Assembly: GCA_031282355.1 (NCBI GenBank)
Contig: JAITDW010000001.1
Span: 1-64,000, forward strand
Direction of reading: 5' to 3'
DNA: 64,000 bases
DNA from: Candidatus Endomicrobiellum neotermitis
GTDB taxonomy: Bacteria; Elusimicrobiota; Endomicrobiia; Endomicrobiales; Endomicrobiaceae
This document shows, one piece after another, positions 9,378 through 43,303 of the stretch (its first letter is position 1; every line of letters starts with the position of its first letter). The translations under genes were made by a program, and so were the position numbers. The notes beneath the pieces were generated by a model. That model searched no databases. It had not been told where the DNA came from and saw only the letters and a list, made by a program, of their open reading frames with translations.

Positions 9378-9621
9378 ATATTTTACCTCAAAATATTCTT
9401 ATAGTTTTATTCTTTTTTTACTAAATTACATTATAATACTTTAAGGATTATACATATTTTTTATAAATAGCTGTTAAAATATAGTTATGAATGTTCAAAA
9501 TTCAAGGATTAATTTGATAAAATATTAAGAAGAATTACATATGATTAGGTGCTTGTGTTGTAACATTTTAGAATATATTGATTATAAAAAAATGTTGAAT
9601 GCTAAAAAATAGGTATTTAAG

Positions 9622-10836
9622 ATGAAAAATGTATTTTTTACATCAGTAGAAAGTGCTATCAAAGATATTGAATTAGGTAAAATGATTATAATTGCTAATA
9701 ATTCTGATATAAAGAATGAGGGTAATTTAGTTTGTGCTGCAGAAAGAATTTCTCATCGAATTATAAATTTTATGGTAAAACACGCAAGGGGACTCATTTG
9801 CGTTCCTATGAAACATGAACGACTTAAAGAACTCAAGATAGATAACATGGTTGAAAGTTCTATAGAAAAAGAAAAATGTTCTTTCACAATATCTGTTGAT
9901 TATAAACTTGAAACTACAACAGGAATTTCAGCGTATGATAAAGTTGTAACAACTATTAAGAAACTTATTGATAAAACAACAAAATCGGAAGATTTTATAA
10001 AACCAGGGTATGTATTTCCATTAAAGTATAATGAAGGAGGTGTTTTAGTAAAAAGTGGGTATGCAGAAGCAATTATTGATTTAGTGAATCTTGCTGGACT
10101 TTATCCAGCTGGAGTTGTATGTAAAATAATGAATGATTGTGGTACAGTAACACGAATGATTAATTTAATAAAATTTGCTGAAAAATATAAACTCAAAATT
10201 ATAACAATAGATGAAATTATAAAATATAGACGTACAACAGAAAAACTTGTGATAGAAGTTGTTAATGTAGATTTACCTACAAAATATGGTGATTTTAGAC
10301 TTATATGTTTTGAAAACGTTATAACTAAGGATTTTCATTTAGCAGTTGTTAAGGGTAATGTTAAAAATAAGCAAAATGTTTTAGTAAGAGTTCATTCTTC
10401 ATGTGAAACTGGTGATATTTTCCATTCGTTGAGGTGTGACTGTGGTGAACAACTTAAAATAGCGTTAACTATTATTGGACAAATTAAACAAGGTGTAATT
10501 CTGTACATGCATCAAGAAGGTAGAGGAATAGGTCTTATTAATAAATTAAAGGCTTATAGTTTACAAGAAAAAGGTATGGATACTGTTGAGGCTAATATAG
10601 CACTTGGATTTGCGCCAGATTTAAGAGATTATTGGATAGCTAGTCAGATACTGCATGAACTTGGCGTAAAAAGTGTTAATGTTATGACGAATAATCCGCA
10701 AAAAATAATGAGCCTTAAAGAATATGGCTTAAAAATAACAAAAAGGATTCCTTTGGAGATTACTCCTACGAGTGCTAATATAAAATATCTGAAAACGAAA
10801 ATGATAAAGATGGGACATATATTAGAAATAGTATAA
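9622..10836 (+). CDS. ribBA: RibAB-type fusion: intact GTP cyclohydrolase II with a degenerate DHBP synthase domain
   Basis: The C-terminal half (about 207-404) is a complete GTP cyclohydrolase II, opening GTP for riboflavin synthesis: zinc cysteines in HSSCETGD and SLRCDCG, YMHQEGRGIGL, and the catalytic Asp/Arg region DLRDYW. The N-terminal half aligns along its length with 3,4-dihydroxy-2-butanone-4-phosphate synthase, but signature residues have changed. The canonical DDEDRENEGD is NNSDIKNEGN (26-35), GHTEA is GYAEA (146-150), and the Glu before the IMN motif is Lys168. The metal-binding Glu and His are therefore lost and this half is probably inactive. TTGISA and FPL are retained. It stands alone, without ribH, ribE or ribD nearby. 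Confidence 0.9.
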   Translation: MKNVFFTSVESAIKDIELGKMIIIANNSDIKNEGNLVCAAERISHRIINFMVKHARGLICVPMKHERLKELKIDNMVESSIEKEKCSFTISVDYKLETTTGISAYDKVVTTIKKLIDKTTKSEDFIKPGYVFPLKYNEGGVLVKSGYAEAIIDLVNLAGLYPAGVVCKIMNDCGTVTRMINLIKFAEKYKLKIITIDEIIKYRRTTEKLVIEVVNVDLPTKYGDFRLICFENVITKDFHLAVVKGNVKNKQNVLVRVHSSCETGDIFHSLRCDCGEQLKIALTIIGQIKQGVILYMHQEGRGIGLINKLKAYSLQEKGMDTVEANIALGFAPDLRDYWIASQILHELGVKSVNVMTNNPQKIMSLKEYGLKITKRIPLEITPTSANIKYLKTKMIKMGHILEIV

Positions 10837-10844
10837 GCAGAAGT

Positions 10845-10916
10845 TAGCGGCGGTAGGACTTGAACCTACGACCAAAGGCTTATGAATCCTTTGCTCTACC
10901 ACTGAGCTACGCCGCC
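10845..10916 (-). tRNA. tRNA-Met (anticodon CAU), probably elongator
   Basis: Acceptor GGCGGCG/CGCCGCT (terminal G-U pair), D-stem GCTC/GAGC, loop TTCATAA, T-stem GTAGG/CCTAC. The lack of a C1-A72 mismatch excludes an initiator. It resembles elongator tRNA-Met more than tRNA-Ile(k2C), but the latter cannot be ruled out. The last anticodon-stem pair is an A-G mismatch. CCA is not encoded. It is convergent with ribAB. Confidence 0.88.
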
Positions 10917-10930
10917 CATACAAATAATTT

Positions 10931-11021
10931 CGGAGGAGGAGAGATTCGAACTCTCGGTACGGGTAAATCCCGTACACCGGTTTAGCAAACCAGCGCACTA
11001 GACCAACTATGCGACCCCTCC
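10931..11021 (-). tRNA. tRNA-Ser (anticodon GCU)
   Basis: A class II tRNA of 91 nt: acceptor GGAGGGG/CTCCTCC, anticodon stem CTGGT/ACCGG, loop TTGCTAA, long variable arm (TGTACGGG/CCCGTAC-like), discriminator G. It reads AGU/AGC. It precedes tRNA-Met by 14 bp on the minus strand and shares its promoter. CCA is not encoded. Confidence 0.95.
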
Positions 11022-11051
11022 ATTTCTTTAGAATGTAATATGGAAGTCAAA

Positions 11052-11081
11052 ATTGTATCAAAATAACATTATTTTTTACAA
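11052..11081 (-). promoter_or_regulatory. Promoter of the tRNA-Ser/tRNA-Met unit
   Basis: On the minus strand: -35 TTGTAA (11076-11081), 18-bp spacer, -10 TACAAT (11052-11057). The tRNA-Ser 5' end lies 30 nt downstream of the -10, as expected for a short tRNA leader. Confidence 0.5.
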
Positions 11082-11141
11082 CTATTAGTACATATAGCTA
11101 AATATTTTTTGATTTTTGATTATTATTTTTATAATATAAAA

Positions 11142-41063: not shown

Positions 41064-41909
41064 ATGTATAAAATTGTAAGTAAAGAAAAAATTGGACCTA
41101 ACATACAAAGCTATGAAATTTTTGCTCCTGAAATTGCAAAAAATGCTCAACCGGGGCAATTTATTATGTTTAGAATTAATGATAATGCTGAAAGAGTTCC
41201 ATTAACCATTGCACATACAAATTATCAAAAGGGATTAGTCAAAATAATTTTTCAAGAAACAGGTAAAAGTACAAAACAACTTGCATCACTTAGTGAAGGT
41301 GATTATATACAAGATTTTGTAGGTCCCTTAGGACGTCCTACTGAAATCAAAAAATACGGAACTATAGTTGTTGTCGTTGGTGGAGTTGGAGTTGCTGAAG
41401 CATTACCTATAATAAAAGCGTTTAAAAAAATCGGGAATAAAATTATTACTATAGTTGGTGTGAAATCTAAAAATTTGATAATACTTGAAAATGAGTTAAA
41501 AAAGGAAAGTGACTTATTATTTTTTGCTACAAATGATGGAACATATGGAGTAAAAGGGCTTGTCACAGATATTTTAGAAAAAATAATAAATAAAGAAGAA
41601 ATAGACATGTTTTATATTATTGGGCCAGTACTTATGATGCAGGCTGTTGCAAAATTTACAAAAGAAAAACATATATATACTTTAGCTTCTTTAAATCCCA
41701 TAATGCTTGACGGTACTGGAATGTGTGGAGCATGTAGAGTTACTATAGATAATAAAATTAAATTCGCTTGTGTTGATGGTCCTGAATTTGATGCACATTT
41801 AGTAAACTGGGAAGAGCTCATTTCAAGACTTAATTCATTTAAAAATCTTGAAGAAATTTCTATGAATAAATTTGAACAAAAACAGGAGTGTAAATGTCAC
41901 AGAACATAA
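41064..41909 (+). CDS. nfnA: NfnA-type FAD/NAD(P)-binding, 2Fe-2S oxidoreductase subunit
   Basis: The small subunit of NADH-dependent reduced ferredoxin:NADP oxidoreductase (also named SudB or GltA-like). FAD-binding ERVPLTIA (about 47-54) and the nucleotide-binding GGVGVAEALPI (about 107-117) precede C-terminal cysteines for a 2Fe-2S cluster in GMCGACRV and FACVDGPEFD. With NfnB it couples NADPH, NADH and ferredoxin by electron bifurcation. It overlaps nfnB by 16 bp. Its 281 residues fit NfnA. Dihydroorotate dehydrogenase PyrK is a related alternative, but the NfnB neighbour argues against it. Confidence 0.88.
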   Translation: MYKIVSKEKIGPNIQSYEIFAPEIAKNAQPGQFIMFRINDNAERVPLTIAHTNYQKGLVKIIFQETGKSTKQLASLSEGDYIQDFVGPLGRPTEIKKYGTIVVVVGGVGVAEALPIIKAFKKIGNKIITIVGVKSKNLIILENELKKESDLLFFATNDGTYGVKGLVTDILEKIINKEEIDMFYIIGPVLMMQAVAKFTKEKHIYTLASLNPIMLDGTGMCGACRVTIDNKIKFACVDGPEFDAHLVNWEELISRLNSFKNLEEISMNKFEQKQECKCHRT

Positions 41910-43303
41910 GGATGTTAGAAAGAGAGCCGAAAATAAGAAAACATGATTTTGAACAAATAAGTTTTGGGTATAGTAAAGAAGAAATGCTTATTGAAGCAAG
42001 AAGATGTTTACAGTGTAAAAAACCTATGTGTTGCGTTGGATGCCCTGTAGAAGTTGATATTCCTAAATTTATAAAGTTTCTTTCTGATGATAAACCTCAG
42101 GAAGCTATTAAAATTTTAAGAGAAAATAATAGTCTGCCTGCTGTGTGTGGTAGGGTTTGTCCACAAGAAACACAGTGTGAAAAATTTTGTATTTTATATA
42201 AACAAAATGCAAGCATTTGTATTGGAAATTTAGAAAGATATGCAGCTGATTCTACATCTAAAATTCATAATTCATTTTTTAATATTAGCAGTATTAAAAA
42301 AAATGGGTTAAAAATCGCAGTCGTTGGTTCTGGTCCTGCAGGTCTTACATGTGGAGGCGATTTGTTAAGAATGGGTTACGATGTTACAATTTATGAATCA
42401 TTACATGATAGTGGTGGGGTTTTACGTTATGGGATTCCAGAATTCAGACTTCCTAAAAAAATTTTAGATATAGAAATAAACATACTTAAAAAATCTGGGA
42501 TGAAAATAAATTTGAACACTTTTATTGGTAGAACAAAAACAATTAGAGATCTTTTTAATGAAGGATATAAATCAATATTTATTGCTGTTGGAGCTGGACT
42601 TCCTATATTCCCCAATATTCCAGGTGAGAATTTAAACCATGTTTATTCTGCAAGTGAATTTTTAGTACGAATAAATCTCATGCATGCTTATGATTTTCCT
42701 ATATATGATACTCCGGTTTATAAAGGTAAAAATGTTGTAGTTATAGGTGGTGGTAACACAGCTATGGATTCTGCGAGAACTTCAATAAGACTTGGAGCAA
42801 AAACTGTCAAGCTTATTTACAGGAGAACAGAAGATGAAATGCCTTCTAGAAAGGAAGAAAAAAAACATGCTAAAGAAGAAGGAGTTGAATTTATAGTTTT
42901 AACATCCCCTGTAAGATTTATAGGAGATGTTAAAAGGTTTGTCAAAGCTGTTGAATGTGTAAAGATGGAATCTAATGGACATAGTAATTTTGGCGTAAAA
43001 AATTCTCTAAAAAAGATTGATGGATCAAATCATATAATTGAAACTGATATGGTAATTTTAGCTTTAGGATTACATCCTAATCCAGTTTTATCTTCATTGA
43101 CAAATAATTTAAATATAGATACACGTGGATATCTTATAGTTGATAACAATTATATGACTTCTATACCAGGAATATTTGCAGGAGGTGACATAGTTGGAGG
43201 AAGTACAGTAATTGAAGCTATTGGAATGGGTAAAAAGGCTGCAAAGGCTATAGTAGAATATATAAAAAAAACAAATAGATATATGCAAAAAACTAAGTTC
43301 TAA
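41894..43303 (+). CDS. nfnB: NfnB-type NADPH-binding subunit (glutamate synthase small-subunit family)
   Basis: The large subunit of the NfnAB bifurcating transhydrogenase. N-terminal cysteines for two 4Fe-4S clusters are in RCLQCKKPMCCVGCPV and VCGRVCPQETQCEKFC (about 36-98). Two dinucleotide folds follow: VVGSGPAGLTCGGDL (about 142-156) for FAD and VVIGGGNTAMDSARTS (about 283-298) for NADPH, ending with IFAGGDIVGGSTVIEAIGMGK. It would be annotated as glutamate synthase beta in isolation, but nfnA adjacency and the absence of a large gltB point to NfnB. An AGGAG site lies within nfnA. Confidence 0.9.
   Translation: MSQNIRMLEREPKIRKHDFEQISFGYSKEEMLIEARRCLQCKKPMCCVGCPVEVDIPKFIKFLSDDKPQEAIKILRENNSLPAVCGRVCPQETQCEKFCILYKQNASICIGNLERYAADSTSKIHNSFFNISSIKKNGLKIAVVGSGPAGLTCGGDLLRMGYDVTIYESLHDSGGVLRYGIPEFRLPKKILDIEINILKKSGMKINLNTFIGRTKTIRDLFNEGYKSIFIAVGAGLPIFPNIPGENLNHVYSASEFLVRINLMHAYDFPIYDTPVYKGKNVVVIGGGNTAMDSARTSIRLGAKTVKLIYRRTEDEMPSRKEEKKHAKEEGVEFIVLTSPVRFIGDVKRFVKAVECVKMESNGHSNFGVKNSLKKIDGSNHIIETDMVILALGLHPNPVLSSLTNNLNIDTRGYLIVDNNYMTSIPGIFAGGDIVGGSTVIEAIGMGKKAAKAIVEYIKKTNRYMQKTKF

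Follow-up and report, generated by a model that had tools for sequence, protein, structure and literature searches.

What keeps the GTP cyclohydrolase II half of a bifunctional riboflavin enzyme intact in a symbiont that apparently no longer makes riboflavin? The question is raised by a ribBA gene in Candidatus Endomicrobiellum neotermitis (G000), whose genome of 582,188 bases is assembled in three contigs and which belongs to a group of endosymbionts of termite gut flagellates (PMC11257099). The window, that is, the whole stretch of DNA that was analysed, corresponds to bases 1 to 64000 of contig 3. It contains the gene and its two domains:

9622..10836, + strand: RibBA fusion gene, 404 aa; a single open reading frame, frame intact, with 0 internal stops
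9649..10227, + strand: DHBP synthase (RibB) domain, full length and apparently catalytically degenerate; PF00926 match, 12 of 59 invariant positions changed
10261..10752, + strand: GTP cyclohydrolase II (RibA) domain; PF00925 match, 0 of 64 invariant positions changed, omega 0.063

Both Pfam domains, PF00926 (DHBP_synthase, residues 10-202) and PF00925 (GTP_cyclohydro2, residues 214-377), are full length and occur in the RibB-RibA order characteristic of bifunctional RibBA proteins. The original prediction, that the N-terminal domain aligns with DHBP synthase over its whole length and is preserved in both length and frame, is borne out, although the domain ends at about position 10227, slightly past the 10150 first proposed. 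The protein passes the domain models TIGR00506 (187.5 vs 177.45) and TIGR00505 (248 vs 205.85); against the NCBIfam equivalog PRK09311 it scores 522.4 bits, below the cut-off of 569. Its nearest named relatives are found in Endomicrobiellum and Endomicrobium MAGs, with identities of up to 69%. The AlphaFold model (mean pLDDT 90.6) is confident in both halves and weakest in residues 81-110 (block means 64-73), and the best matches in a structure search with this model are RibBA and DHBP synthase structures. These include M. tuberculosis RibA2 (PDB 4i14), which, like other bifunctional RibBA proteins, shares the domain order and fold and is the best match in both sequence and fold. However, RibA2 retains the motifs DDEDRENEGD, PGH and GHTEA, and the G000 protein does not. 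The replacements in its RibB half correspond, residue for residue, to those originally listed:

9697..9726, + strand: residues 26-35, NNSDIKNEGN instead of DD-x-x-RENEGD (metal/substrate loop)
10009..10011, + strand: Tyr130 instead of His (E. coli His136)
10060..10062, + strand: Tyr147 instead of the GHTEA His (E. coli His153)
10123..10125, + strand: Lys168 instead of the Glu before IMN (E. coli Glu174)

A shifted alignment does not account for these differences. In phmmer alignments with DHBP synthases of solved structure from E. coli (1iez/1g57), C. albicans (1tks) and S. pneumoniae (4ffj), the domain is in register around all sites. Forty-two other RibBA proteins all have D26, R107, H130, R144 and E168; R at position 30 and E at 31 occur in 41 of 42, as does D at 35, and position 147 is H in 38 and Q in 4. 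The metal and substrate residues of DHBP synthase that are expected of a bifunctional RibBA are not retained in G000. One of the 42 proteins, from an Actinomycetota MAG (L113:2537-3733), has a degenerate first RibB loop (DDKSPNNEGV) with intact GHTEA and CEI motifs. Separately, two relatives with intact ribBA have an additional frame, at G004:C23:21174-21764 (L171) and G019:C51:98268-98564 (L170); these second frames are a distant RibB-like one (32% identity) and a partial RibA-like one.

The extent of the loss was gauged in a comparison of 36 RibBA proteins, drawn from the 32 genus genomes (of 41) that have a GTP_cyclohydro2 domain and from four others in the same order. Invariant positions, 59 in the RibB half and 64 in the RibA half, were defined on the 34 proteins other than those of G000 and of a second genome, G028. 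In G000, 12 of the 59 are changed (D26N, R30I, E31K, D35N, R107K, H130Y, R144K, H147Y, T148A, V152I, E168K and M176V) vs none of the 64, and in G028 the counts are 12 of 59 and 2 of 64; the Fisher P values of 8e-5 and 0.003, respectively, are guides only, given the kinship among the sequences. Apart from these two, no protein of the 36 has more than two changed positions in either half. With active-site loops defined after PMC5228156, the changes in G000 show a weak concentration there (6 of 18 loop positions vs 6 of 41 others, P = 0.16), and those in G028 a stronger one (7 of 18 vs 5 of 41, P = 0.03). The changes in G000 also favour charged or histidine positions (9 of 18 vs 3 of 41), a preference that G028 does not show (5 of 18 vs 7 of 41). 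On the strength of these replacements, the RibB half of G000 is almost certainly catalytically dead.

It is extremely unlikely that this half is still active with an altered site, or that it has gained a new ligand. The predicted fold is indeed confident and most resembles RibBA and DHBP synthase structures, but the replacements affect D26, R30, E31, D35, H130, H147 and E168 simultaneously, and G028 has lost a mostly different set, D26N being the only identical change common to both; this looks like loss and not like a shared new site. Of the structural, regulatory or new ligand role first suggested for the domain, the new ligand thus finds no support, because the changes strike metal- and substrate-binding residues and mostly differ between the two genomes, whereas a fold kept for RibA fits. 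The data, namely a RibB omega well below 1 and a confident model, are consistent with a RibB half kept as a fold needed by RibA, or merely for its reading frame; the frame may be retained because RibA is translated behind RibB or because RibA needs the RibB fold.

The C-terminal half presents the opposite picture, and here the expectation that it keeps its zinc cysteines and catalytic residues is upheld:

10402..10443, + strand: zinc cysteines Cys261, Cys272 and Cys274

Tyr295, Arg335 and other key positions are kept as well. Codon models with a separate omega for each terminal branch were fitted with our own script to 17 of the 36 RibBA taxa. RibA-half omega is 0.063 in G000 and 0.080 in G028, not different from the background of 0.055, and a value of 1 is rejected in both cases (2dlnL 63.5 and 35.2). 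RibB-half omega is above background, at 0.125 in G000 (2dlnL 7.5) and 0.105 in G028 (2dlnL 4.3), and is still far below 1 (2dlnL 33.5 and 45.2), with a confidence range that overlaps that of the RibA half. A RibB half that was fully neutral along the entire branch is ruled out by these values. The ratios of RibB to RibA branch length, 1.84 in G000 and 1.47 in G028 vs 1.07 overall in the others, are within the range of other taxa and were given no weight. The omega values indicate full constraint on RibA, and a relaxation of RibB that falls chiefly on its working residues.

The original prediction saw in the loss of RibB the puzzle of how riboflavin is made, and proposed a genome search for ribB, ribD, ribH and ribE. 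RibBA provides the one PF00926 match in the G000 genome, and no second ribB was detected. Across 59 genomes searched, DMRL synthase (ribH) was found in 41, the RibD C-terminal domain in 42 and riboflavin synthase (ribE) in 42, and none of the three in G000 or G028. The flavokinase domain of RibF was detected in 36 of 41 genus genomes; the five that lack it are G000, G017, G021, G028 and G033. The FAD-synthetase family of RibF has no match in G028 and none above cut-off in G000, where a single sub-threshold match (20.4 bits) resembles the second match of relatives. In relatives (L076, L078), ribD, ribE, ribBA and ribH adjoin in one cluster; the corresponding sites in G000 are as follows:

9378..9621, + strand: intergenic, upstream of ribBA; the ribD-ribE site in relatives, with no remnant
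10837..11108: downstream of ribBA; the ribH site in relatives, with tRNA-Met and tRNA-Ser on the minus strand and no ribH remnant

The neighbours of ribBA in G000, named by eye, are an RsmE-type gene upstream and the two tRNAs and a glycosyltransferase-type gene downstream. In G028, where genes were likewise named by eye, ribBA still follows argG, as it does in G024, and ribD and ribE are gone. A tblastn search of the ribBA flanks of both genomes with the G018 and G024 proteins gave only chance-level matches to ribD, ribE or ribH. At Rfam gathering scores, the window contains 12 tRNAs only and no riboswitch. Since ribD, ribE, ribH and ribF were not detected, G000 apparently makes neither riboflavin nor FMN or FAD, and the puzzle is one of RibA conservation instead.

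Estimated completeness is 85% for G000 and 80% for G028, and missing genes could therefore sit in assembly gaps, with another DHBP synthase carrying out the RibB step. We consider this very improbable, because the flanks of ribBA are assembled in both genomes and hold none of the genes that cluster there in relatives, because three separate places (ribDE, ribH and ribF) would have been missed in both genomes, and because of the single PF00926 match in G000. Riboflavin cannot be made without RibB; RibA would thus have persisted beyond the end of riboflavin synthesis, unless the genome once had another RibB. The loss of FMN/FAD synthesis in several Endomicrobiellum lineages or subclades has already been published (PMC11257099), and G000 resembles these flavin auxotrophs. 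The passages of that report on this loss do not mention a retained RibA, and the word "riboflavin" occurs 0 times in its main text. A literature search, largely without subscription papers, found no title or abstract reporting that RibA is kept after loss of the riboflavin pathway.

Flavins nevertheless appear to be in use, as the window encodes enzymes that depend on them:

41064..43303, + strand: two FAD-enzyme genes, a sulfide/dihydroorotate dehydrogenase-like FAD/NAD-binding subunit and a gltA-type subunit

Their presence implies that flavins must be supplied from outside and, in the absence of detectable FMN/FAD synthesis, that a flavin-nucleotide importer should exist. It may be that labour is divided, with the RibA product exported, converted to riboflavin in the flagellate host or in a co-symbiont, and returned as FMN/FAD. 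Such an arrangement would be in keeping with an outside source of flavin nucleotides, to which the lack of RibF in G000 and G028 and the remaining FAD enzymes point. It would, however, require a phosphorylated, labile intermediate to cross membranes, and no exporter or partner genome was identified, so that we regard it as improbable.

Whether G000 and G028 represent one event or two bears on why RibA persists. In the RibBA tree, G000 groups with G018 (UFBoot 97), and in the tree of valyl-tRNA synthetase (ValS) with G018 and G008 (UFBoot 99). G028 groups with G007 on RibA (UFBoot 87) and on the joint data (80), and instead with G030/G017 in the ValS tree (84). Both G018 and G007 have complete rib sets. 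A clade of G000 and G028, when forced, is disfavoured but unrejected by single genes (AU P = 0.105 for ValS, 0.052 for RibBA and 0.137 for the RibA half), and is rejected on RibA plus ValS (AU P = 0.019). It is thus likely, if not certain, that the one-sided RibBA arose independently in the two genomes, a conclusion drawn from the combined data. The valyl-tRNA synthetase genes have peculiarities of their own: in that of G028 (L204, G028:C3:161500-165200) the frame is broken near the C-terminal end, in the tail, possibly through erosion or assembly error, and G017 has two full-length, clearly different copies (L205, L207).

The recurrence is relevant to an alternative account, in which riboflavin synthesis ended recently, ribD, ribE, ribH and ribF were deleted first, and the RibA half is a leftover that has yet to decay. 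Genome reduction is strong in this group, several still smaller relatives are without RibA, and the modest rise in RibB omega could be produced by neutral evolution over about 8% of the branch. The same neutral period should, however, have cost RibA about as many invariant positions, and RibA has lost 0 of 64; its omega has a 95% limit of about 0.12, which leaves room for a neutral fraction of no more than about 6% of the branch, and the one-sided pattern recurs in G028. A pathway caught in mid-loss is thus unlikely, with some chance of being correct. Among other reduced relatives, RibA is undetectable in G017, G021, G030 and G033, which could mean either that its role is dispensable or that RibA is on its way out.

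Probably, then, the RibB half is dead and the RibA half works and is kept for a role other than riboflavin synthesis. As judged from sequence, the formerly bifunctional RibBA would now act solely as a GTP cyclohydrolase II. Riboflavin synthesis would have ended in the symbiont, with flavins presumably taken from the host cell. The RibA product, 2,5-diamino-6-ribosylamino-4-pyrimidinone 5'-phosphate, or the turnover of GTP itself, would serve another purpose, as the purifying selection still acting on the RibA half suggests.

The likeliest such role, which we put forward tentatively, would be in the pterin branch of folate synthesis. FolE is found in both G000 and G028, directly adjoining a dihydropteroate-synthase-type gene (FolP; named by eye), and FolK is present in both, as in 37 of 41 genus genomes; folate synthesis thus looks alive in these two symbionts. 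There is a possible precedent in Chlamydia, likewise an obligate intracellular bacterium, whose RibA (GTP cyclohydrolase II) reportedly contributes to folate synthesis (cited in PMC5312566). There RibA is reported to fill a gap in the pathway, whereas G000 and G028 have FolE, though altered, and a strict Chlamydia-type replacement of an absent FolE is accordingly ruled out.

The alterations in FolE were assessed in 34 genomes, namely 27 from the genus, out of 28 that had a match (G032 was left out), and seven others; G056 was dropped because filtering yielded no frame. In T. thermophilus FolE, the phosphate is contacted by Lys134, Arg137, Arg183 and Arg64, and the zinc and catalytic residues are His111, Cys108, Cys179 and His177 (PMC4005822); this numbering was mapped onto the genus sequences by motif. 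Zinc and catalytic residues are kept in 34 of 34, with Cys108, His110, His111, His177 and Cys179 all present in G000. The full set of four phosphate contacts is not retained there: Arg64 and Lys134 are kept, Arg137 is replaced by Glu, and the Arg183 column holds Lys according to the aligner, which places a one-residue insertion before it, or Thr in an ungapped reading. On the latter reading, two contacts are lost in G000 (Arg137, Arg183), as in G028 (Lys134, Arg183) and G021 (Arg137, Arg183); one is lost in G002 and G010 (Arg183) and in G003 (Arg137), and none in the other 28. The Fisher value for contact loss is 0.005, and is void if the G000 column is Lys, in which case only one contact is lost. 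FolE omega, 0.076 in G000 and 0.105 in G028, is near the background of 0.065, which indicates that FolE is not a pseudogene. Further conserved positions are lost (3 of 44 in G000 and 9 in G028), so weakening by drift is possible. The loop after HLC is changed in G028 (L161), G021 (L169) and G000 (L160), alike in the first two and different in G000.

The RibA product is the monophosphate counterpart of an intermediate in the FolE reaction, and this resemblance is the basis for proposing that RibA feeds or relieves FolE. In the FolE reaction, ring opening precedes the Amadori step (PMC6718149). RibA would open GTP and remove formate and pyrophosphate, and FolE, its phosphate grip weakened and its zinc and catalytic residues intact, would close the pterin ring; alternatively, RibA would relieve a failing FolE. 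In its most specific and rather unlikely form, the proposal is that two symbionts, each reduced independently, have split the GTP cyclohydrolase I reaction: RibA would open GTP and strip pyrophosphate, and FolE, having lost its hold on the triphosphate, would only rearrange and close the ring. A vitamin B2 enzyme would then have become the first step of folate synthesis after B2 synthesis was lost.

Several observations weigh against a link to folate. G002 has lost a FolE contact, yet has a full rib set and thus no orphan RibA, and G021 has a doubly altered FolE and no detected RibA; no RibA was found in G010 and G003, each with one contact lost, in assemblies that are incomplete. Despite the wide occurrence of FolK, a search for FolB (dihydroneopterin aldolase) gave 0 matches in the 41 genus genomes, so that a different enzyme must carry out this step throughout the genus. 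If the replacement is PTPS-III, a triphosphate is wanted, which argues against a monophosphate route.

One-sided RibBA proteins as such are known, as the original prediction noted for plants. Arabidopsis RIBA3 (PMC3509567) is a full-length RibBA fusion with exchanges at essential DHBP-synthase residues and a conserved GTP cyclohydrolase II half, which is active in RIBA3. The G000 protein shows the same pattern of lost DHBP-synthase residues and kept GTP cyclohydrolase II, a likeness of pattern only. Plants, however, keep a fully bifunctional RIBA1 along with the remaining pathway enzymes, whereas ribBA is single-copy in G000 and ribD, ribE, ribH and ribF were not found. A. baumannii RibBX (PDB 6mnz), to judge from its entry title and alignment, is likewise a two-domain protein of RibB/RibA type with one domain apparently out of use. 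It is the mirror image of the present case, named as a DHBP synthase with a domain X; in the alignment, no cysteine motif is seen in its RibA-like part.

What is of interest here is the absence of the pathway, together with the case in G028 that is probably parallel. If RibA is truly kept without riboflavin synthesis, the annotation "ribBA present" does not imply riboflavin production, and the opening step of one vitamin pathway would have found a new use as the genome shrank. Two cases, probably parallel, among relatives whose pathways are intact, together with a before-state that can be read in G018 and G007, make the question of RibA testable.
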